A stretch of DNA of 35,008 bases from Verrucomicrobiota bacterium (GCA_021324235.1 JAJPJM010000129.1:1-35008), one strand, 5' to 3'. Positions 3,997-14,480 are shown, counted from the first letter of the stretch. Made by a program: numbers and translations. The notes: generated from the sequence alone by a model not told the origin.

Positions 3997-4032
3997 ATGG
4001 CGCGCCCGCTATGGGGTGTTCACCCCAACTGA
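3997..4032 (+). pseudogene. Possible N-terminal relic of a REP-associated tyrosine transposase (MARPL then frame loss)
   Basis: ATG GCG CGC CCG CTA... TGA encodes MARPLWGVHPN*; MARPLR is a common RAYT N-terminus. Only five residues support this. Confidence 0.2.
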
Positions 4033-4260
4033 TATTGAGTCACGAGTTCGCGAAGTTGCCGAGATAGTGGGCATGGAAAGCAGACAATTTTAGGCTATTA
4101 AAAGGAGAGGAATCGTCACCCCTGTTTGTCACCCCGACGGAAAAAATCCGAGGTTTTTGAATCCGTTTGGGTTCATCCCAGCAGGCAAGGAGAACAGCGG
4201 GATCAGGTTGTCAGTCCAAGTGGCTCCTCATGGGGGCCAATGAGTCCAGGAAACTCAGGT

Positions 4261-4302
4261 CTTTGTGTAAACGAGACGCGCTAGCCACTGCGCCAAGCGC
4301 CC
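4261..4302 (-). tRNA. 5' half of a tRNA-like sequence (acceptor 5' strand, D-arm, anticodon loop with TAC); 3' half not found
   Basis: Minus strand GGGCGCT-T-G-GCGC-AGTGGCTA-GCGC-G-TCTCG-TTTACAC-AAAG fits tRNA positions 1-38, but the 3' anticodon strand, T-arm and acceptor 3' strand are absent. Confidence 0.4.
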
Positions 4303-4636
4303 GACTGATAGGCAAGGTAGCAGGACCCGACTTTTTGACAAACTTCAAATCTCGCATCTCCGCAATCCGGGGATGACGGACAAGGAAGGACCGGACGGTC
4401 TGCCGGAAGCCGATCCCGAGTCAACAGGCATTTCGAACGTGTTCGTGCCGGGGCAAGGGGATACCGCAAAATCCCGGTTAAAGTGAAAAATTGTTGAAAG
4501 ATTGCGAATTTACCCGCGTAAAAGCTGTAGTGCGGTTTTGTGTGACGATAACAGGGTTGACCGCCGTTGCAGTTTCGTTTGGAAAGTACGATTGCGAAGG
4601 GTGCGAATCAGCCGCAAGGCCGCGCCATGACATTTT

Positions 4637-4706
4637 ATACCAACTCCGGTTCCAGGGTAGGGTATCGGTTCCAGGGAAAAGGGATGTGTCGGGACGGAGT
4701 TGGTAT
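4637..4706. repeat. Inverted repeat (12-bp perfect arms) with an 11-bp direct repeat inside
   Basis: ATACCAACTCCG (4637-4648) / CGGAGTTGGTAT (4695-4706); CGGTTCCAGGG at 4647-4657 and 4666-4676. Confidence 0.75.
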
Positions 4707-4818
4707 TTATGAATAATGAATAGATACCGAAGAGCTGTGGCGCCGGTTACATGCGACCGGTACGGCACGAGGCGCGGATTTCAGCCCCGGGCAAATCTGC
4801 CATACGTAATAAAAGAAC

Positions 4819-6378
4819 ATGATGCTTCAAACGCGGAAAAAATGGCAGCAGGCGGAACGGCAGGCGCATATGCAGTCCAGCGCCCTGGAGGCCGCCGCCA
4901 ATAGCATTATTTTGACGAACAAGGCGGGAAAACTTCTGTTCGCCAACAAGGCCTTTTGCGCCATGACCGGCTACAGCCCGGAGGAAGTTCTCGGCCGAAC
5001 CCCGGACTTTCTGAAGTCAGGCAAACACGCCGCCGCTTTTTTCGCTGAACTTTGGGAAACCATTCTGGCGGGCCGGGTCTGGCAGGGGGAGATCATCAAC
5101 CGGCGCAAGGACGGGGCGCTCTATAACGAGGAAATGACCATTACCCCGATTCAGGAGGCGGACGGAGAAATCAGCCATTTTATTGCGATCAAGAAAGACA
5201 TCACCCAGCATCTCAGATTGAAGGAACATTTGCATCATCTGCAAAAAATGGAAGCGGTGGGTCAGCTGGCGGGAGGGATCGCGCATGATTTCAACAATCT
5301 GCTCACGATTATTCATGGCAACGCTCAGTTGGTATTGTCAGAGGGGAGTCATCTCAAGGAGGACGATCGCCGGTGTCTTCAACAAATCACCAATGCCACC
5401 GAGCGCGCTGCAAATTTGACCCGCCAATTGCTTGCCTTCGGACGGAAACAGAACTTTCAATTTCAACCCGTCAACCTGAACCAAGTCATCGGTAATTTCA
5501 CCCGGATGCTCAAACGGGTCGTCGGCGAGCAGGTCGTGCTGGAATGCAATTACGCTGAAAACCTGCCTCCGGTCAGCGCGGATGTCGGCATGATTGAGCA
5601 AATCCTCATCAATTTGATTGTTAATGCCCGTGATGCCATGCCGGCCGGCGGGTCCATTACGATCTCGACGGAAACCGTTGGAATTGACGTTGCCTATGTG
5701 AACCTTCATCCCGAGGCCGAGCCCGGGAATTTTGTCTGCTTTACGGTAAGCGACACGGGGGTGGGGATCTACCCGGAATACCTGCCGCGGATTTTTGAAC
5801 CCTTCTTTACCACCAAGGAAGCAGGCAAGGGCACCGGCCTCGGTCTGGCCACGGTCTATGGTATTGTCAAACAACACCAGGGTTGGATTGACGTATCCAG
5901 CCAGCTGGGGGGTGGAACGGCTTTTAAAATTTTCCTGCCGGCCGGTGTTACTGATGGGGTGGAAAAAAAGGTTTTGCCAACACCGGTGCGCCGTGCCGCC
6001 GGGGGTGAAAAAATTCTGCTGGTCGAAGATGACATCGATGTTCGAATGATTGCCCGGAACGTTTTGGAGGCATCCGGTTATCAGGTCTGGGAAGCTTCCG
6101 ATGGTTTGGAGGCTTTGAATATCTGGAAGGCCAACGCTCCGCAAATTGATTTGTTGCTGACCGATGTGATCATGCCGGGTGGTCTTAACGGGCGGGAACT
6201 GGCCGACCGTTTGCGGGGAGAACGGCCCGGGCTCAAGGTGATCCTGATGAGCGGCTATAGTCCCGATCGGTTGGGCACGATCCAAATGCACAACCGCGTT
6301 TTGCCCAAGCCATTTTCACTCGAAGATCTTACCCAGGCCGTCCGGAGTTGTCTGGACACGGCATCTTTGGCTGATTGA
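4819..6378 (+). CDS. PAS-domain hybrid histidine kinase with C-terminal receiver
   Basis: PAS (ALEAAANSIILTNKAGKLLFANKAFCAMTGYSPEEVLG), HisKA (GQLAGGIAHDFNNLLTII), HATPase (NLIVNARDAMPAGG, VSDTGVGI, GTGLGLATVYGIVKQ), REC (ILLVEDD...LLLTDVIMP...LPKPF). Confidence 0.95.
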   Translation: MMLQTRKKWQQAERQAHMQSSALEAAANSIILTNKAGKLLFANKAFCAMTGYSPEEVLGRTPDFLKSGKHAAAFFAELWETILAGRVWQGEIINRRKDGALYNEEMTITPIQEADGEISHFIAIKKDITQHLRLKEHLHHLQKMEAVGQLAGGIAHDFNNLLTIIHGNAQLVLSEGSHLKEDDRRCLQQITNATERAANLTRQLLAFGRKQNFQFQPVNLNQVIGNFTRMLKRVVGEQVVLECNYAENLPPVSADVGMIEQILINLIVNARDAMPAGGSITISTETVGIDVAYVNLHPEAEPGNFVCFTVSDTGVGIYPEYLPRIFEPFFTTKEAGKGTGLGLATVYGIVKQHQGWIDVSSQLGGGTAFKIFLPAGVTDGVEKKVLPTPVRRAAGGEKILLVEDDIDVRMIARNVLEASGYQVWEASDGLEALNIWKANAPQIDLLLTDVIMPGGLNGRELADRLRGERPGLKVILMSGYSPDRLGTIQMHNRVLPKPFSLEDLTQAVRSCLDTASLAD

Positions 6379-6447
6379 AATTTCCGGAAAACCGGGTTCC
6401 GCCGGCCTTTGATGAAATTACCGCCGGTGTGCGGACGGCAGCTTCAA

Positions 6448-6903
6448 TCACCCGGTCGCCGGCGCTGGCTGGATTTCCTGCAGGGCCCGGTGCATCTCCG
6501 CAGCCGAGGCATAACGTTGCGCCGGGTCCGGTTGGCAGGCCTTGAGGATGATGGTGTTCAACGGAAGGAAATCCGCCGGGTCTTCGCGCTCGACCAGGGT
6601 CGTGGCCATTTCCGGAAAAAAAGTCGCATTACGACCGGTGCTGAGCACATAAAGCACCATACCCAGGGCATAAATATCCGCCTGCGGGGTGCCCGGACGC
6701 TCCGGGGGTGGCGGCATATAGCCGGGCGTGCCCACCAGTGTCCGCTCCTGGTCGGGGGGCTTGATTTCAGTGATGAGTCCCAGATCCGCCAGCTTGGGGT
6801 GGCCGTTTACAAAAATAATGTTCTGGGGCTTGATGTCCCGGTGAGTGAGTCCCTGGCGATGGATGAAATCAAGGGCGTCACTCAATGCCAAGCCAATCCT
6901 CAC
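6448..6903 (-). CDS. Ser/Thr protein kinase C-lobe (second half of split CHASE2 kinase; GTG start)
   Basis: GLTHRDIKPQNIIFVNGHPKLADLGLITEI, VGTPGYMP, DIYALGMVLYVLSTGR, DPAQRYASAAEMHRAL; overlaps the upstream ORF by GTGA. Confidence 0.88.
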   Translation of the reverse strand: MRIGLALSDALDFIHRQGLTHRDIKPQNIIFVNGHPKLADLGLITEIKPPDQERTLVGTPGYMPPPPERPGTPQADIYALGMVLYVLSTGRNATFFPEMATTLVEREDPADFLPLNTIILKACQPDPAQRYASAAEMHRALQEIQPAPATG

Positions 6904-8447
6904 TCCCGTATCGGCAGCCTCCGTCCCCGGGCGCGGGCGCGTTCACTCACCAAATCACGCGGCCGGTACGTGGAAGGTTCCTTTTCCCAACCGGGCTTGA
7001 GCGGGTCTCCCAGCTCCATGACATAATAAAAATATTCCGCCTGCTTCTCACTGACAAATTCCACCCGCAACAGGCCGGGATGTTTGTCGGAGACCGGCTG
7101 ATATTTTTTGATGCCGCTGAATTCGCGCTCGTAGGGATCCGTATTTTGGTCGAAGTTTGCCAGGTAAACCACCTTCAACGCCCGCCATTGCCCGGCCTGA
7201 TTCCGCGCCAGCCAGACTTTTCCATAAGCGCCTTCGCCAAAGGGCGGATTGAACAAATTGTAACCGGGTGCATCCGGCATCGGCTCAACCGCGGCGGCCG
7301 CGCGGGGAAATGACAGGGAAACCGCCCTGGTTTCATACGCTTGACGTACTTTGAGGATCAGCGTCCAGGCCAGGGCGCAGGGCAACTGGCCGCCAACAAT
7401 CACCAGCCAGGGAAACCAGTAGTTGGTGAAGTAACTCCAGGAAATCGACCCGAATGCCACCACCAAGGCAACTCCAGCCGCCGTGGCACAAGCCAGTGGC
7501 AATCGCAGTCGGCACAATCCGCCGCCCAGCAACAGTCCACTGGTCACCAGCATCAATGCTTCCAGCCATCCGGCCGGCCGCCGCAACCAGTCGTGATTCA
7601 TCAGATTCAGAAAGGCGGCGAGCTGGATTTCCACGCCCCCAATGGATTCACCGGTCCAGCGGGTGTAGGGAGTGTTGAATTTATCTTTTTCGTCGTCGGG
7701 CACCGATGTTTTCGGCGCCGTGCCAATGAACACGATTTGACCACGAAAATAATTCGTTGGCCGGTCCAGCGCGAATCGGTAACTCAATCTGGTCCAGGCG
7801 CCATCGCGGCCGTAATAGCGCAACCACCGTTCCTGCGGGACTTCGCTCAATTGCGCCCCGGCCAGCCGCGCCGCGGCCCAGGGCAGGCTCGGATAAGGTC
7901 CCGGCGAGGGGAACGGCCAATGCCGGCGCACAATCAAGTCGGAATCCCCATCGAGGCAGGCCACCCCCCAATTGGTTCCGGCGGCGCTGAGAAATGGTTC
8001 TGCAGGCAGAATGGGCTGTGCTCCGGCCAGCATCGGGTAGATCACTTGCGCTTGCTCGGCCATCAGCACGATGTGACGTTGCCGCCGCATCGCTTGAGCC
8101 AGGGCTTCATCCTGTGCCGGGTCGTTCGTTTGTCGGAAGAAGGAGTCAATTACCGCCAGAGCGCACCCGTCATCCGCCAGCCGGTTCAATAATCGGGCGT
8201 GCAATCCCCGGTCCCACGGCTGACCACGGGTCTGATGAAATTGGTTGAATGCCTCATTGTCCATCAGAATCAAGGTCACCTGATTCGTGACGGCACGCGC
8301 GCCAAAGCGGAATAAATAGTCGTAGCTGGCATTCACCCAGGGATCGCCCAGCGGCATCTTCCACAACATCAAACCGCAAAGCACCGCCAACGCCGCGCCC
8401 AGCGCGGATTTTAAAAATTGACGTCGTTTGATGGCTCTGACCTTCAC
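6900..8447 (-). CDS. CHASE2 sensor domain, transmembrane helices and Ser/Thr kinase N-lobe
   Basis: N-terminal TM, CHASE2-like region (VTLILMDNEAFNQF..., GQIVFIGTAPKTSVPDDEKDKFNTPY...GVEIQLAAFLNLMNHDWLRRP), three C-terminal TM segments, kinase N-lobe (FGEGAYGKVWLARNQAGQWRALKVVY). Confidence 0.9.
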   Translation of the reverse strand: MKVRAIKRRQFLKSALGAALAVLCGLMLWKMPLGDPWVNASYDYLFRFGARAVTNQVTLILMDNEAFNQFHQTRGQPWDRGLHARLLNRLADDGCALAVIDSFFRQTNDPAQDEALAQAMRRQRHIVLMAEQAQVIYPMLAGAQPILPAEPFLSAAGTNWGVACLDGDSDLIVRRHWPFPSPGPYPSLPWAAARLAGAQLSEVPQERWLRYYGRDGAWTRLSYRFALDRPTNYFRGQIVFIGTAPKTSVPDDEKDKFNTPYTRWTGESIGGVEIQLAAFLNLMNHDWLRRPAGWLEALMLVTSGLLLGGGLCRLRLPLACATAAGVALVVAFGSISWSYFTNYWFPWLVIVGGQLPCALAWTLILKVRQAYETRAVSLSFPRAAAAVEPMPDAPGYNLFNPPFGEGAYGKVWLARNQAGQWRALKVVYLANFDQNTDPYEREFSGIKKYQPVSDKHPGLLRVEFVSEKQAEYFYYVMELGDPLKPGWEKEPSTYRPRDLVSERARARGRRLPIRE

Positions 8448-8660
8448 CGCTGGTTGATTTTAGAAAAACTCCCGGCCGAAATCAGTGCTTTTCGCGCCGG
8501 ACATTGGAAAGGGAAGGTTAATAATGCAAAATGACGGGGCCGTTCAATCCATCCCTTTATCAATCAACCTGAAATTTTTGAAAGATTGGCCCGATTGCTG
8601 CGTATTGTCAGTGTTAGCTCTAAGTGTAGGGCAAAACAAACTGCTGTGCAGATTCCAGGG

Positions 8661-8683
8661 GCTGTCGGGGGGAGGACGACAGC
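8661..8683 (+). promoter_or_regulatory. Short hairpin in the leader of the Ig-like protein gene
   Basis: GCTGTCG (8661-8667) / CGACAGC (8677-8683), 9-nt loop, 27 nt before the ATG. Confidence 0.35.
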
Positions 8684-8710
8684 AAAGAACCCATAATAAC
8701 CCTTAAAACT

Positions 8711-9478
8711 ATGAACAGACGCATCCCTTATATCGTTTCACTGGCAACCATCACCGGATTGCTTGCCATGGCACCAAACATTACTCATGCCCAAACCACG
8801 GACCCGCTTTTGACCGACGCGGTCGATCAATCCGCATTTCCAATAATAGCGGCTCAACCGGTGGACCAGGCCGTTATCGCGGGGTCGAATGTCGTGTTAT
8901 CGGTCCAGGCAGTCTATGCTGATAATTATCAATGGCAATCCAACGGGGTTGATATTGCGGGACAAACCAACAGCACGCTGATTCTTCAGAACGTTGGGGT
9001 TAATAACGCAGGATCATACTCCTGTAACGTTTCCCAGACGGGAGGAGATCCGGTACCGACTCGCGCGGCGTCGGTGGTGGTTGAGACCGCTGCCAGTGCA
9101 ACTGGTGCTGGCGTGATGGCCAATGGCGTTCTGGGCGGCGGACCAATCGTGGTGTCCGGCGGACCCAAGGCCAGTAACGGCACGCAAGGAACCTGTCCAG
9201 GCAGTTTCGTTGGTTACGTCATTTACAGCAAAACCATTTCACAAGGCTGGGGCTGGACGCCCATTTCCGGCGCGACAACTCTTACCGCTTCTGATGGCGG
9301 TGGACGAACGGATACATTCATTACTTATATGGGGAAGTACGGTGATACGGGCTGCGGTCAAACAACGGTCACCATTCCCTATCCGCCGCCCAGCCCCGCT
9401 TACAGATTCACGGTCTTTTTTCCCAGTAGCGTGCCGACCACCAACTATCCCATCATCCTGACCGGATTTAATCCCTGA
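8711..9478 (+). CDS. Secreted Ig-like domain protein of unknown function
   Basis: Signal peptide ending in THAQ; Ig-like motif NVVLSVQAVYADNYQWQSNGVDIAGQTNSTLILQNVGVNNAGSYSCNVS; Cys-containing C-terminal region unassigned. Confidence 0.8.
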   Translation: MNRRIPYIVSLATITGLLAMAPNITHAQTTDPLLTDAVDQSAFPIIAAQPVDQAVIAGSNVVLSVQAVYADNYQWQSNGVDIAGQTNSTLILQNVGVNNAGSYSCNVSQTGGDPVPTRAASVVVETAASATGAGVMANGVLGGGPIVVSGGPKASNGTQGTCPGSFVGYVIYSKTISQGWGWTPISGATTLTASDGGGRTDTFITYMGKYGDTGCGQTTVTIPYPPPSPAYRFTVFFPSSVPTTNYPIILTGFNP

Positions 9479-9630
9479 CGGCGATTCGGTAATTTCTTAA
9501 CTCTCCGACCGGCAGCGCGGGTAAAAATGCTCAATAGGGTTGCGGCGAAATGTCGCAAAAGGGAAATTGTGAGCGACCCGCCTGCCGGCGGTTTTTGCAG
9601 AGGAAGTGGAAAACGGTCCTGGAAGGTGAA

Positions 9631-12600
9631 TTAGAAATTCAACTGCAGACTTACGAGCAGGGTGCGCGAGCGCGGGAGTTCGTTGTAAAGATTGAGAGGG
9701 TTCAAGCTGTAATTTTGACCGGTGAGATTGAGGATGCCGAGGGTGACTTGACCTTTACGATGCAGAAAACGATAGCCGGCAAATGCATTCAGTTGCCAGA
9801 AATCACCACCCGGCTCAGCAGGATTGTATCCGCTGTTGCTTTGATCATACCAATCAGCCTCTCCCTGGGCAAAGAAGCCGCAGGGATGGTTGTAAACCGC
9901 TGACATACTCAACTCTTGCAAGACGCCTTTGGTCCGCTGACTTGGTACTATGGCATTGTCAATCCCGAGTAATGGTGAAGTGACTGGCACGTCGGGGAAA
10001 TTATCATTTAAGACCACCTGACTGAGCTGGTACCGCGCGCCGAGAGACCAGTCCCGGCCCAACAACTGGTTGGCGGTGACCAGCAGTGTTTCTTCCGAAT
10101 AATCCAAATTTTCTCGTAGCGTGGATGGCACTGCGTCATCGAACAAGTCAGAATAATAATTGAAAACGCCGTCCAGCCGATGGACGGTAGAGTTTAATAT
10201 TTCACCGGAAATACCCAGGTAAGTTCCGGTGCTGAATTTTTGTTCCAAGGAAAGGTCATAAGTTTCAAATTTGGCCCCGGCATTATCCCCGGCGATGGAT
10301 TCCGGAATGATGCTGCGATAGTTCTGAATGAAACCCGCCACCTGTGAAGGCTCGATTTGGTAACTTTGGTCCAGGCTTGCTCCGCCCAATGAGCGGGTAT
10401 AGGCAAAACGGACGGTGGTTTTATCCAGTGGCGTCCAAATCAGACCGGCTTTGGGCGAAATCCGACTAGCGGTCGTTTCGTCCCCCGAGATGGGTGCACT
10501 CTGGAAATCCTGTGGATAGGTGATACGGTCATAAGCCACGCCACCAATCAATTGCAGCGGCTCCAAAATCTGCCATTGATGGTAGCCATAAAAACTGAAG
10601 CGCTTGAAAAGAGAAGTAATGTCCTCCGGTGCTATCGGGTCGGGAAAAGCGGGCAAGAGCGCAAAGGACGTGTTGTCTTGTAGAACGGTAGTATGAAAAT
10701 GACCGTATTGGATGCGAGAACCAATAATAGTATTGTGAGAAGGCCCCTCCCAAATCTGCTGCAATTCACCTGAATAAATATCCAGCTTGCTCGCATAATT
10801 CGCATCCATGGTTATGTTTTGTGCTGAAATAAACGTGGGGGGAATGCCGGGCAGGTCTTGAAACAGGGATGGCTGCGTAAAGTTGGTGAACGAGTAAGTG
10901 TCGTCGAGGCGCGCCGCCAAAAACAACGTGTGAACTCCGGGTCCCCATTCGTGATGATAGCCGAGACTTACGATCGGTTCTTGTTTTTCGTTAAAGCGGT
11001 AAGTTGGACTGGCCGTGTTTTGATCGTAGTATTGTGTCAAATCCCCGCCATCGGCATTGTATTGTTTTACCTGCACATAAGCTGTGTCCTGGGGCGTGAA
11101 TTGATATTTGAACGCCGCGGACAGTTGCCGTTGTTCGATGTCTTCATTGAAACGTTGTCCCGGATCGGTGCGGTAGAATCCCTCCAGGTCATAACCAAAG
11201 TTGTCAAAGACGCCGTATTGTGCGCCTGCCTGCGTCCAGGCCCCGCGGCTCAGATATTCCGTGCTCGATACGACCCCGAAACCGTTGCGTTCGAACAATG
11301 GGGAATATTCCTGTTGGGAAATCGTGGGCGACAAGGTGCCGGCGCTTATCGGGGACAGCAAATTTGCCAGCAAATATTCGCTCTCGGCAGGAGTTTCATA
11401 ACGGAGATTGATCCCGTTCGGATCGCCGAGATCCGCAAAGCTGTTTGCCAGGAACAGATGGGCCGAGTAATTCGCGTAATCGTTGTTGACCGCGCGGGAG
11501 GCTTCGCGCGTAGCCACGTCATCCATGCCATCGTCCCGGTACATCGCCGCCAGATTTGCGCTGCGCACCGCGCGGTCCTGGTCCAGCAGCAGTTGCGAAC
11601 GATAAACGCTCCGGTTGTCGTTCAAGGCCTGCGACTTTTCCAGGTCCTGAATCGCGTCGTTGATCCGGTTCTCCTGTTGGTCCAGCAGGGCGGAATAAAG
11701 CCACGCCGTCGGATCATTGGGATCCAATTTTTCCGCCCGTTGAAGTTCCCTGGCGGCATGCGGATAATCGCCCGCATCCGTGTAAGCCTTGCCCAGATAA
11801 CTGCGCAATTCGGCACGTTGCGGTTCGAGCGCTGCGGCCACCAGCAGGTCTTCACGTCCCCCTTTGACATCGCCGCGGCGGACACGACAAAGACCGCGCC
11901 CCAGCCATGCGTTACCAAGCGCAGAGTCCACCGCCAACGCCCGGTCGAACCAGCGGATGGCCTCACCGGTGCGATTTTGCGCCGCGAGCAGAAATCCCTT
12001 CAGCGCGAGCGCCTGGGCGTTGCGCGGTGCCAGGGCCAGGCTTTTATCCAAGGCGTCCAACGCGCGGCGGGAATGGCCGGAACTGAACTCCAGTTCCGCC
12101 ACGCGTTCCCAGGCAAAACCGAAATCCGGCGAGTTGGTCGCGGCCTCCCGTGCGGAAGCCAGTGCCGCCATTAATGAAATGCCAGGGACGGCGCGCGATT
12201 GTTCATAGTAGGAATCCGCCAGAAATTCCGTGGCCAGTTGCGGACGGGCTGCCGGCGGATTTGGCTGCCGTTTCACGGCGGCGATGAGCCGGTGCAAGGC
12301 CGCCGCCATCCGTTGCGGCCGGCTGGAGGCGTCGGAACCGGACAATGCGGCCAGCACGGATTCGGCCGACTCAACTTGTCCAACACTTAAAAGCAGGCCG
12401 GCATAATAAACCCGTTCGGCGTCGGAGCCGGGCGACCGTCCCGCCGGATATTGGGCCAGCGCGGCCATCAAATCGCCCGAGCGATAAGCCTGGAGGGATT
12501 CGCCGAGGATTTTTTGTTCGTCCGATGTGAACGGCAGGTCTGCCGGATCAATGATCGCCGGGTAGTAAAAACACCATTGCAGGAGGTTGTTGGCAATGAA

Positions 12601-13212
12601 ACCCGCCGTGCGGACGGGCGCCTTGCCTGGCTCGACGACGGCTTGCTGACCGTTGGTCAACCGCAGCATGGCCTGTTCGTTGCCGAACCGGACTTTGCCG
12701 TCAATGACCGACAGGGTCGTGCGCCCCGTGTCGTCCACCGCCATCGCGAATTCCGTGCCCTCCACGCCGGCGACGGCACCGCGAGTGATGACCCGGATGC
12801 GCCCCGGTTGGTCCCGATGAAAAAACGAGAGGATGCCCCGGAGCAAATGCAGTCCGCATTGCGCATCCGCTGAATCCGGCGGCAGCACTTCGATTTCCGT
12901 CGAAGCGCCGAAAGATAGGACGCTCCGGTCAGACCAAAGCAAGGCCATCCGGCTGTTGGCGCCGGTGCGTAACCGGTCGAAGGGATGCAGGATTTGGTGG
13001 TTCTGCGCCGGTGTCCAGGTGGTGGTTGTACCGGAGGCAATTTCCGCCGTGCCTTGCAGTTCCACAATCCGGATTTCGTTCGTGATGGCACCACCGGCCA
13101 TTGGCTGCGCATGCGATCCCTCGACGCCAGCCAAGAAACCCCAAAAAACGGCGGCCTTCAACAAACCGCGCCCGGCTTTAGGAAACAAGTTCAAGCGATT
13201 AAATCCGTCCAC
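9631..13212 (-). CDS. FecR-domain / TPR / outer-membrane beta-barrel fusion protein (1193 aa)
   Basis: Signal peptide; FecR-like region (RLRTGANSRMALLWSDRSVLSFGASTEIEV...GVEGTEFAMAVDDTGRTTLSVIDGKVRF); TPR array (ALALKGFLLAAQNRTGEAIRWFDRALAVD, ...LRSYLGKAYTDAGDYPHAARELQRAEKLDPNDPTAWLY); TonB-receptor-like C-terminal barrel ending in LLVSLQLNF. Confidence 0.88.
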   Translation of the reverse strand: MDGFNRLNLFPKAGRGLLKAAVFWGFLAGVEGSHAQPMAGGAITNEIRIVELQGTAEIASGTTTTWTPAQNHQILHPFDRLRTGANSRMALLWSDRSVLSFGASTEIEVLPPDSADAQCGLHLLRGILSFFHRDQPGRIRVITRGAVAGVEGTEFAMAVDDTGRTTLSVIDGKVRFGNEQAMLRLTNGQQAVVEPGKAPVRTAGFIANNLLQWCFYYPAIIDPADLPFTSDEQKILGESLQAYRSGDLMAALAQYPAGRSPGSDAERVYYAGLLLSVGQVESAESVLAALSGSDASSRPQRMAAALHRLIAAVKRQPNPPAARPQLATEFLADSYYEQSRAVPGISLMAALASAREAATNSPDFGFAWERVAELEFSSGHSRRALDALDKSLALAPRNAQALALKGFLLAAQNRTGEAIRWFDRALAVDSALGNAWLGRGLCRVRRGDVKGGREDLLVAAALEPQRAELRSYLGKAYTDAGDYPHAARELQRAEKLDPNDPTAWLYSALLDQQENRINDAIQDLEKSQALNDNRSVYRSQLLLDQDRAVRSANLAAMYRDDGMDDVATREASRAVNNDYANYSAHLFLANSFADLGDPNGINLRYETPAESEYLLANLLSPISAGTLSPTISQQEYSPLFERNGFGVVSSTEYLSRGAWTQAGAQYGVFDNFGYDLEGFYRTDPGQRFNEDIEQRQLSAAFKYQFTPQDTAYVQVKQYNADGGDLTQYYDQNTASPTYRFNEKQEPIVSLGYHHEWGPGVHTLFLAARLDDTYSFTNFTQPSLFQDLPGIPPTFISAQNITMDANYASKLDIYSGELQQIWEGPSHNTIIGSRIQYGHFHTTVLQDNTSFALLPAFPDPIAPEDITSLFKRFSFYGYHQWQILEPLQLIGGVAYDRITYPQDFQSAPISGDETTASRISPKAGLIWTPLDKTTVRFAYTRSLGGASLDQSYQIEPSQVAGFIQNYRSIIPESIAGDNAGAKFETYDLSLEQKFSTGTYLGISGEILNSTVHRLDGVFNYYSDLFDDAVPSTLRENLDYSEETLLVTANQLLGRDWSLGARYQLSQVVLNDNFPDVPVTSPLLGIDNAIVPSQRTKGVLQELSMSAVYNHPCGFFAQGEADWYDQSNSGYNPAEPGGDFWQLNAFAGYRFLHRKGQVTLGILNLTGQNYSLNPLNLYNELPRSRTLLVSLQLNF

Positions 13213-13328
13213 GCATCTGACTGACTAACGTGACTGAGACAAGCAGATAAAACCCTTTTCTTCAACATTTTTCGAGATTACGGTATATTTTATTGCCAAC
13301 CGTTATTTAAGACCACATTACTTGTTTA

Positions 13329-13955
13329 ATGGCAGAGCCGAAGGATGAATTGATTCCGACGCGCGCAACTTTGATCCAGCGCCTCAAGGATTGGCAGGAT
13401 CAATCAAGTTGGCAGGATTTTTTTGACACGTACTGGAAGCTCATCTATGGGACCGCCATCAAGAGCGGTTTGACGGCGACCGAAGCGCAGGATGTCGTGC
13501 AGGAAACCATGATTTCGGTCGCCAAGCACATGCCCGCCTTCAAATATGACCCGGCGATTGGCTCCTTCAAAACCTGGCTCTTAAACATGACCCGCTGGCG
13601 CATCACCGACCAGCTCCGCAAGCGTGGGCCTTTTGTGGCCGGTCATTCCACTGCCGACGATACCGCCATCGGCACCCGCACGGTGGACAATATGGTGGAT
13701 CCGACGGGCCGGGACCTGGACGCGCTGTGGGACGCCGAATGGGAAAAGAATCTGCTGGATGCGGCCATGGCAAAAGTCAAACGCCGGCTGGACCCGCGTA
13801 AATATCAAATCTTCGATTTATACGTGAACAAGGAATGGCCGCCCGAAAGGGTGGCCGCCACCTTCGGCATATCCGTGGATCAGGTTTATCTGGCCAAGCA
13901 TCGGACGACGGAACTGATCAAGGAAGAAGTCAAAAAACTGGAGGAGAAAATGTGA
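13329..13955 (+). CDS. ECF-type RNA polymerase sigma factor
   Basis: Sigma region 2 (DVVQETMISVAKHMPAFKYDPAIGSFKTWLLNMTRWRITDQLRKR) and region 4 (RKYQIFDLYVNKEWPPERVAATFGISVDQVYLAKHRTTELIKEEVKKL). Confidence 0.92.
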   Translation: MAEPKDELIPTRATLIQRLKDWQDQSSWQDFFDTYWKLIYGTAIKSGLTATEAQDVVQETMISVAKHMPAFKYDPAIGSFKTWLLNMTRWRITDQLRKRGPFVAGHSTADDTAIGTRTVDNMVDPTGRDLDALWDAEWEKNLLDAAMAKVKRRLDPRKYQIFDLYVNKEWPPERVAATFGISVDQVYLAKHRTTELIKEEVKKLEEKM

Positions 13956-14012
13956 ATTCATTGGCTCCCGGGCCGTTCATGAGGTGCGCCGGCAACCGGG
14001 CGGAATACGGGT

Positions 14013-14480
14013 TCAGCGAATTTCATCCGGAAATCCCTGTTGCCGCAACGCCTCGAATAAAACCAGCGCCGCGCAGTTCGACAGGTTCAGCGAACGGGAT
14101 TGGGCGTTGAACATCGGAATCCGCAGCCAATGTTCGCGGTTGTGTTCCAATAATTGCCCCGGCAAACCGGCGGTCTCACGCCCGAAAACCAGATAATCCG
14201 CCGCTGAAAATTTTGCTTCCGTATAAAGTTTCGGGCCGTTCGATTCAATGAACCACAGCCGCGCGTCAACCGGCAGTTTTTTTTCAAAGGCCGTCCAGCC
14301 GGGCCACCGGTGCCACTCGACGTGTTGCCAGTAATCCATGCCCGCGCGTTTGAGCTGCGCGTCATCCAGCTTGAAACCAAATGGCTCGATGAGATGCAAC
14401 GTCGTCCGGGTCGCCGCGCAGAGCCGTGCCACGTTGCCCGTATTCGGTGGAATTTCCGGTTCGACTAGAACAATTTGCAT
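14013..14480 (-). CDS. trmL: tRNA (cytidine(34)-2'-O)-methyltransferase, SPOUT family
   Basis: MQIVLVEPEIPPNTGNVARLCAAT, LKRAGMDYW, DYLVFGRETAGLP, LRIPMFNAQSRSLNLSNCAALVLFEALRQ. Confidence 0.94.
   Translation of the reverse strand: MQIVLVEPEIPPNTGNVARLCAATRTTLHLIEPFGFKLDDAQLKRAGMDYWQHVEWHRWPGWTAFEKKLPVDARLWFIESNGPKLYTEAKFSAADYLVFGRETAGLPGQLLEHNREHWLRIPMFNAQSRSLNLSNCAALVLFEALRQQGFPDEIR

Follow-up and report, generated by a model that had tools for sequence, protein, structure and literature searches.

The nearest characterised counterpart of the receptor described here was found to be, as judged from sequence, NsrA of Sinorhizobium meliloti, and FecA/FecR appears to be a poorer comparison. 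In the NsrA-CyaK pair, as at the present locus, the gene for an exported FecR-TPR-barrel protein of ~1200 aa immediately precedes that for a membrane effector with a CHASE2 domain. According to the source (PMC7529298), NsrA was found by genetics to be needed with CyaK for signal perception, with NsrA as the receptor and CyaK as the effector, and the NsrA barrel was placed at aa 600-1200. The pair differs from the present locus in its effector, which is an adenylate cyclase acting via cAMP and Clr, and in containing no linked ECF sigma factor. A second described arrangement is that of ECF43 (EcfP/PknT, EcfK/PknS), in which, as here, an ECF sigma factor is found with a Ser/Thr kinase in place of an anti-sigma factor (PMC8999054, PMC13147305).

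The window, which is the whole stretch of DNA that was analysed (35,008 nucleotides), comes as one contig from a metagenome-assembled genome of 3.1 Mb, and its relatives belong to the Limisphaerales (Verrucomicrobiota). The genes for an outer-membrane receptor, a CHASE2 kinase, a small secreted protein and an ECF sigma factor are real genes and recur as a cassette across the Limisphaerales. An earlier note on this DNA had placed these four genes at 6448-13955, and all of them were confirmed in position and domain content. The sigma factor gene (13329-13955, plus strand; Sigma70_r2 E=1e-10, sigma70-ECF E=3e-20) and the receptor gene (9631-13212, minus strand) were found to diverge from a 116-bp intergenic region (13213-13328), and, as had been noted, no anti-sigma ORF was visible between or beside them. 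The conserved-neighbourhood check bore out the grouping, as the receptor-kinase-sigma arrangement was found in at least 13 loci. Neither outcome that the earlier note had named as counting against it was observed: the genes do recur together, and no anti-sigma factor was seen at the cassette.

The cassette probably constitutes an envelope-to-gene signalling system, leading from an NsrA-type receptor through a CHASE2 Ser/Thr kinase and an ECF sigma factor to the secreted protein and a hairpin RNA. A surface signal would be received by the barrel of the outer-membrane receptor, whose periplasmic FecR-TPR arm would engage the periplasmic CHASE2 domain of the inner-membrane kinase; this link is proposed because of the homology to NsrA/CyaK and the conserved adjacency of the genes. 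The kinase would replace an anti-sigma factor and control the divergently encoded sigma factor, presumably with phosphorylation as the switch, a link proposed because of the family-wide association of sigma and kinase. The active sigma factor would then transcribe the secreted-protein gene and the hairpin RNA from promoters of the pattern TTTGAAAGAWY-N13-CGTATW, as suggested by the co-occurrence of promoter motif and sigma factor. Sequence comparison supports the gene identities, the conserved neighbourhood, the exchange of CHASE2 outputs, the association of sigma and kinase and the conservation of promoter and RNA. The earlier note had proposed a path from barrel to CHASE2 kinase to sigma factor, which is favoured by the neighbourhoods, the NsrA/CyaK pair and the position of the sigma family beside Ser/Thr kinases; the contacts, the phosphorylation and the transcription are steps that we infer. 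The path is to be read with two to three independent origins of the sigma-kinase association, an NsrA barrel unmatched in sequence and frameshifts in the kinase gene of both the window and its closest relative.

The receptor of 1193 aa was found to contain a signal peptide, a FecR domain (E=2.5e-12), TPR repeats (E=9e-15) and a C-terminal barrel (TonB_dep_Rec_b-barrel, E=3.5e-13), and homologues were found in 28 of the 59 genomes of the relatives set, with a maximum of six matches per genome. The AlphaFold2 model (mean pLDDT 78, pTM 0.71) contained a beta-rich FecR region at about aa 46-201, followed by a TPR solenoid at about 229-618 and 22 barrel strands at 643-1191. The best solved-structure matches of the barrel in Foldseek were the TonB-dependent receptors PqqU, Fiu, OprC and FecA (E about 1e-14); these matches concern a predicted structure, and the TM-scores normalised to the targets were ~0.5. 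No plug-family match was found in the receptor, the TPR region running directly into the barrel in the model, and no N-terminal signalling domain was detected. The receptor is modelled as an exported FecR-TPR protein whose barrel is predicted to have 22 strands and to resemble that of TonB receptors, but to contain no plug. An exopolysaccharide export porin of the PgaA/BcsC type is not favoured, as the model has 22 strands and Foldseek gives TonB receptors. Paralogues of the receptor were not found in its own genome apart from TPR matches. The receptor gene was found to be split by frameshift in three genomes (L055/L126, L032 and L134), and upstream of the receptor gene of another locus (L046, about 1392-1490) tandem 18-base repeats encoding MGDQAI were present.

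A plasmid search with the receptor (tblastn) matched 63 Sinorhizobium records through FecR and TPR. The matched gene directly precedes cyaK, which overlaps its end, and its intact copy encodes 1221 aa with FecR and TPR; by position, this gene is NsrA. Its product matched the receptor profile with E=4e-32, and CyaK matched the CHASE2 profile with E=3e-40. The profile covers FecR and TPR, and no sequence-level match was found between the NsrA barrel and the receptor barrel. The layout of the NsrA type, with signal peptide, FecR, TPR and a barrel of ~570 aa in a single protein and an adjacent CHASE2 effector, was found at the present locus. The earlier note had taken the classical Fec system as the comparison and the union of FecR, TPR and barrel in one polypeptide as distinctive; NsrA/CyaK fits better than the former, and the latter layout is already known in NsrA.

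A CHASE2 gene was found within 6 kb in 32 of the 43 receptor loci of the 59 genomes, and the grouping is considered to be above chance because this holds despite the presence of only about two CHASE2 genes per genome. The outputs of the CHASE2 partners at receptor loci in Verrucomicrobiota were found to be a Ser/Thr kinase, a cyclase or a hybrid histidine kinase. The clade of the window contains the Ser/Thr kinase output, and a cyclase was found with other receptors of this family.

In the window, the CHASE2 periplasmic domain, the membrane helices and the kinase N-lobe are encoded at 6900-8447 (minus strand; CHASE2 PF05226 E=1.2e-31), followed by the kinase C-lobe with the HRDIKPQN and DLG motifs at 6448-6903 (minus strand; PF00069 E=6e-21), which is cut off from the N-lobe by a frameshift. 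The structure model of the kinase reached pLDDT 67, with a CHASE2 part too weak for use. Intact homologues were found to be single proteins of 656-683 aa in one open frame, and the alignment of the kinase genes contained GGGAGTG----AGGATTGG in the window against GGAATGCGTGCGGATTGG in the homologues, which carry four extra bases at window position 6903 (GAATGCGTG against GAGTG). The split thus appears from the alignment to be a local 4-nt deletion. Both halves of the kinase, which the earlier note had called split, were found in the place it gave, and the split is not a feature of the design, because most homologues are intact and differ by 4 nt. A programmed frameshift was rejected, since a deletion is the simpler account of four more bases in the homologues, and so was a conserved split kinase, since nearly all homologues are intact.

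The frameshift may reflect decay, and an assembly error is conceivable because the sequences come from metagenome assemblies only, though it is less likely than decay. Since the window kinase is frameshifted, the signalling chain is probably broken, silent or altered in this genome. It may well be, with a probability somewhat short of even, that the cassette is decaying here, with the kinase as a pseudogene and the other genes serving another purpose or none, which would be compatible with the signalling path as the best explanation for the family. This is favoured by the 4-nt deletion together with a different frameshift in the kinase gene of the closest relative (L037, 17010-19027; 73% receptor identity). 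Against it, the receptor, sigma factor, secreted protein, promoter and RNA were found to be intact in both genomes, a GTGA overlap could allow translation of both kinase halves, and both genomes are metagenome assemblies in which the assembly may be at fault.

Between the receptor and kinase genes, loci of the main kinase clade were found to encode an exported protein, and iterated search joined these proteins into one family. In the window, it is encoded at 8711-9478 (plus strand) and contains a signal peptide followed by an Ig-like domain (Ig_3 E=1e-8) and a C-terminal domain (about 9095-9475). Conservation in the family lies in the C-terminal domain, which contains a CPG motif and is covered by no Pfam family, and the Ig-like domain was present in only some members, the window protein among them. 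With a single exception among the examined loci, the gene was found on the strand opposite to that of the receptor. The family occurred in 12 of the 59 genomes, once in each, and 11 of the 12 matches were located at a receptor-kinase locus. The twelfth and only off-cassette match was weak and partial (G030:C110:15401-15580; L184), in a genome without a receptor match. The Ig-like secreted protein of the earlier note was present in its place, with the correction that the C-terminal domain is conserved and the Ig part variable; on sequence grounds it appears to be one version of a small secreted family that is nearly exclusive to the cassette, and it looks like a target of the sigma factor because its gene often carries the predicted promoter.

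This promoter was found at 8577-8606 (plus strand; TTTGAAAGATT-N13-CGTATT) and is the only zero-mismatch copy in this genome, which contains one further copy, with two mismatches, at 4493. A -35 element of the TTTTTGAAAG type and a -10 element of the CGTAT type, with identical spacing, were present 5' of the small secreted gene in 8 of 14 loci, and no recognisable promoter was found before this gene in the other 6 of the 14 checked. The strict pattern TTTGAAAGAWY-N13-CGTATW was found at 19 sites in the 59 genomes, confined to 10 genomes, all of which carry the close or cassette sigma factor (10 of 12 such genomes); the 47 genomes without a close sigma contained none, and the reversed pattern used as a control gave no matches. 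The co-occurrence with the sigma factor (Fisher p=1e-9 overall and p=3e-7 for the genus by itself) is partly circular because a few of the sites helped to define the pattern, the remaining sites being at other places. The pattern is put forward as the predicted cognate promoter of the cassette sigma. The earlier note had mentioned neither this promoter nor the hairpin RNA. A promoter for autoregulation before the cassette sigma or receptor gene was found in almost none of the loci.

In one genome (G031; L157, L167, L173), three copies of one identical sigma promoter were present, the two checked copies directly preceding the gene for an uncharacterised protein of ~265 aa, and a regulon expansion is possible there. 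Promoter sites in two different genomes (L056, L165) were each found before related small cysteine-containing proteins of 107-136 aa. In the divergent intergenic region of the window (13213-13328), the conserved element TTGCCA-N17-CATTACT was present, and in most cassette loci it stops a few bases 5' of the sigma start codon, so that the sigma transcript may be leaderless and arise from a promoter of a different type.

Many promoter sites that are followed by no protein gene were found to precede a long stem (ACCAGCUCCG/CGGAGCUGGU) with a G-rich loop, after which comes T-rich sequence. In the window, the predicted sigma-dependent promoter at 4493-4522 (plus strand; CGTAAA -10, two mismatches to the strict pattern), whose orthologue in the sister genome (L183) is spaced identically, is followed by a hairpin at 4637-4706 (plus strand) with a 12-bp stem (AUACCAACUCCG/CGGAGUUGGUAU) and a 46-nt loop containing five GGG tracts, within a predicted transcript of about 4529-4716. 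At 11 of 22 such sites, the stem was 10 bp or longer and the loop contained at least four GGG tracts; among 1500 random windows there were 25 such cases, and among 880 shuffles 55. In an alignment of 12 sequences, 8 of 12 stem pairs contained changes on both sides, a count biased because the sequences were chosen for pairing; the conservation of primary sequence was not subject to that selection. Between the window hairpin and its counterpart in the sister genome, compensating changes were found (AACUCCG/CGGAGUU versus AGCCCCG/CGGGGCU).

With a covariance model, strong hairpin copies were found in the 59-genome set only in cassette-bearing genomes. A wider search of 320 genomes gave a copy in another genus, outside the training set (G129), with a perfect promoter 5' of it and an adjoining CHASE2-kinase gene; at the other new matches (G014:C9 and G244) no recognisable promoter was present in the stretch read. 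When positions 4000-14100 of the window were compared with the covariance models of Rfam 15, no match was obtained with E as high as 1. A dispersed genomic repeat was rejected, as this genome contains one hairpin copy and most others none. As regards a CsrA sponge, ANGGA motifs were found in only some of the loops. A quadruplex was preferred in most of the loops (ViennaRNA with quadruplex energies), and its formation is put only as a possibility because G-rich shuffles also contain such motifs (33%).

There is some chance, rather below even, that the hairpin is merely a terminator or the 5' leader of the gene that follows it, rather than a regulatory RNA in its own right, a doubt that concerns the RNA alone. 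The T-rich sequence that follows the hairpin in most loci is consistent with such a role. The hairpin is followed by a gene for a hybrid histidine kinase of the PAS/REC type in the window (4819-6378, plus strand), where this is a candidate downstream gene of the RNA, and again in L183/L037, L054 and L059, and a 5' leader is conceivable because of these genes. Against this reading, the promoter-hairpin unit was found at two positions, after the sigma or after the kinase gene, and in two loci (L038, L040) it points into the kinase 3' end with no gene between; the G-rich loops, of 28-100 nt, are also large and unlike those of ordinary terminators.

Of the 14 kinase-output loci of the tree set, 13 were found to have the ECF sigma factor linked to them, as against none of the 17 cyclase or histidine-kinase loci (Fisher p=7e-8), a value inflated by relatedness, as the tree contains only two to three independent switches to kinase output, and obtained with a few non-kinase loci that have less than 2 kb of upstream flank. 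All of the independent switches were in the expected direction, and a single origin of the kinase type was not rejected (AU p=0.10). The kinase loci without a linked sigma factor were those of G026 (L041/L127) and G021 (L055/L126), the latter left out of the tree on account of its split receptor; each of these genomes has the sigma factor alone at another place, with no kinase adjoining (L106, L108). In 12 loci (L107, L109-L114, L116, L118, L119, L121 and L122), sigma paralogues unlinked to the cassette were found next to Ser/Thr kinases, of the WD40 type or other, and the genome of the window contains just 10 kinase matches in its 3.1 Mb. The same promoter motif was present just 5' of many of these paralogues, and before 10 of 18 kinase-linked paralogues it was found with p about 0.003 or less; these are suggested to transcribe their own genes because the motif precedes them.

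With a kinase gene as neighbour and no anti-sigma gene, the window sigma factor has the features of a Ser/Thr-kinase-linked ECF. Region 2.2 was found to retain its acidic residues (EAQD/EAED), and phosphorylation would not be required in the manner of ECF43 because of this EAQD motif. Thr60, directly after VVQE, was conserved in 38 of 39 members and is the prime candidate phosphosite, and Thr11 and Thr/Ser14 were present in all.

An account in which two modules merely overlap, the receptor-CHASE2 kinase acting on other substrates, the sigma factor being self-regulated or run by an unlinked protein, and their proximity reflecting co-inheritance, is considered unlikely. The small number of independent switches, the unlinked sigma factors of G021 and G026 and the retained acidic region, with which the sigma factor may work unphosphorylated, are consistent with it. 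It is opposed by the presence of the same sigma family beside different Ser/Thr kinases in unrelated contexts, by the absence of the sigma factor from cyclase and histidine-kinase outputs in the examined set, and by one genome (G054, L120) in which receptor, kinase and sigma genes lie co-directionally in one row. A Fec-like surface signalling, in which the FecR domain itself regulates the sigma factor and the barrel is the receptor, is very improbable. The FecR domain is present and Foldseek groups the barrel with TonB-dependent receptors including FecA, but this FecR belongs to an exported protein of the outer membrane that has no cytoplasmic part for sigma binding, the plug and signalling domain were not detected, and the recurring CHASE2 protein would be left without a role.

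If the path from NsrA-type receptor to kinase to sigma factor is true, it would join three otherwise separate pillars, namely an outer-membrane receptor, a Ser/Thr kinase and an ECF sigma factor, and three different CHASE2 outputs would have been joined to one receptor family. For a sigma factor of an almost uncultured lineage there would be a promoter and a regulon open to test, the sigma factor would be a concrete case of kinase control with the acidic motif kept, which is an issue for kinase-linked groups beyond ECF43, and the hairpin would be a new sigma-dependent RNA family. Only tentatively, a fuller form is proposed, in which a phosphorylation-controlled sigma, fed by the receptor via the CHASE2 kinase, would transcribe a new family of cassette-bound small RNAs, with a conserved stem and a G-rich loop that possibly forms a quadruplex, and the gene of a dedicated secreted protein, by which the receptor would receive feedback. 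The open-access literature searched contained neither the combination of receptor, kinase and sigma factor nor the promoter, the RNA or the secreted protein bound to the cassette, an absence that is weak evidence, and no papers on ECF-driven small RNAs in Verrucomicrobia were found.

Among other known systems, a Campylobacterota cluster contains, as here, a CHASE2 effector with FecR and TPR, and differs in having a CHASE2 cyclase, a FecR outer-membrane protein and a TPR protein as separate proteins, with cyclase output and a phosphodiesterase included (PMC9239204). The BiofilmReg operon of Burkholderia (LysM-FecR with a CHASE2 histidine kinase) likewise contains an exported FecR beside a CHASE2 kinase, and differs in having no barrel and a two-component output (PMC5192318). 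The FecI-FecR-FecA system shares the FecR domain and the TonB-receptor-like barrel, whereas the window system contains no plug, a FecR fused to the barrel and a CHASE2 kinase; a separate inner-membrane FecR with a sigma-binding part, a receptor plug and an N-terminal signalling domain, which are the Fec hallmarks, were not found here. In ECF43 the acidic region 2.2 motif is lost, whereas the window sigma retains it, and PknS contains another periplasmic sensor (TPR), with no outer-membrane receptor described (PMC8999054, PMC13147305). Kinase-linked ECF groups other than ECF43 likewise keep the acidic residues, and ECF59, ECF61, ECF62 and ECF217, with representatives in Planctomycetes, have predicted kinase neighbours and the acidic motif, as here (PMC8999054). 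The pairing of receptor with CHASE2 and the pairing of kinase with ECF sigma are thus each already known, and the kinase output with its sigma factor is a variation on a known layout.
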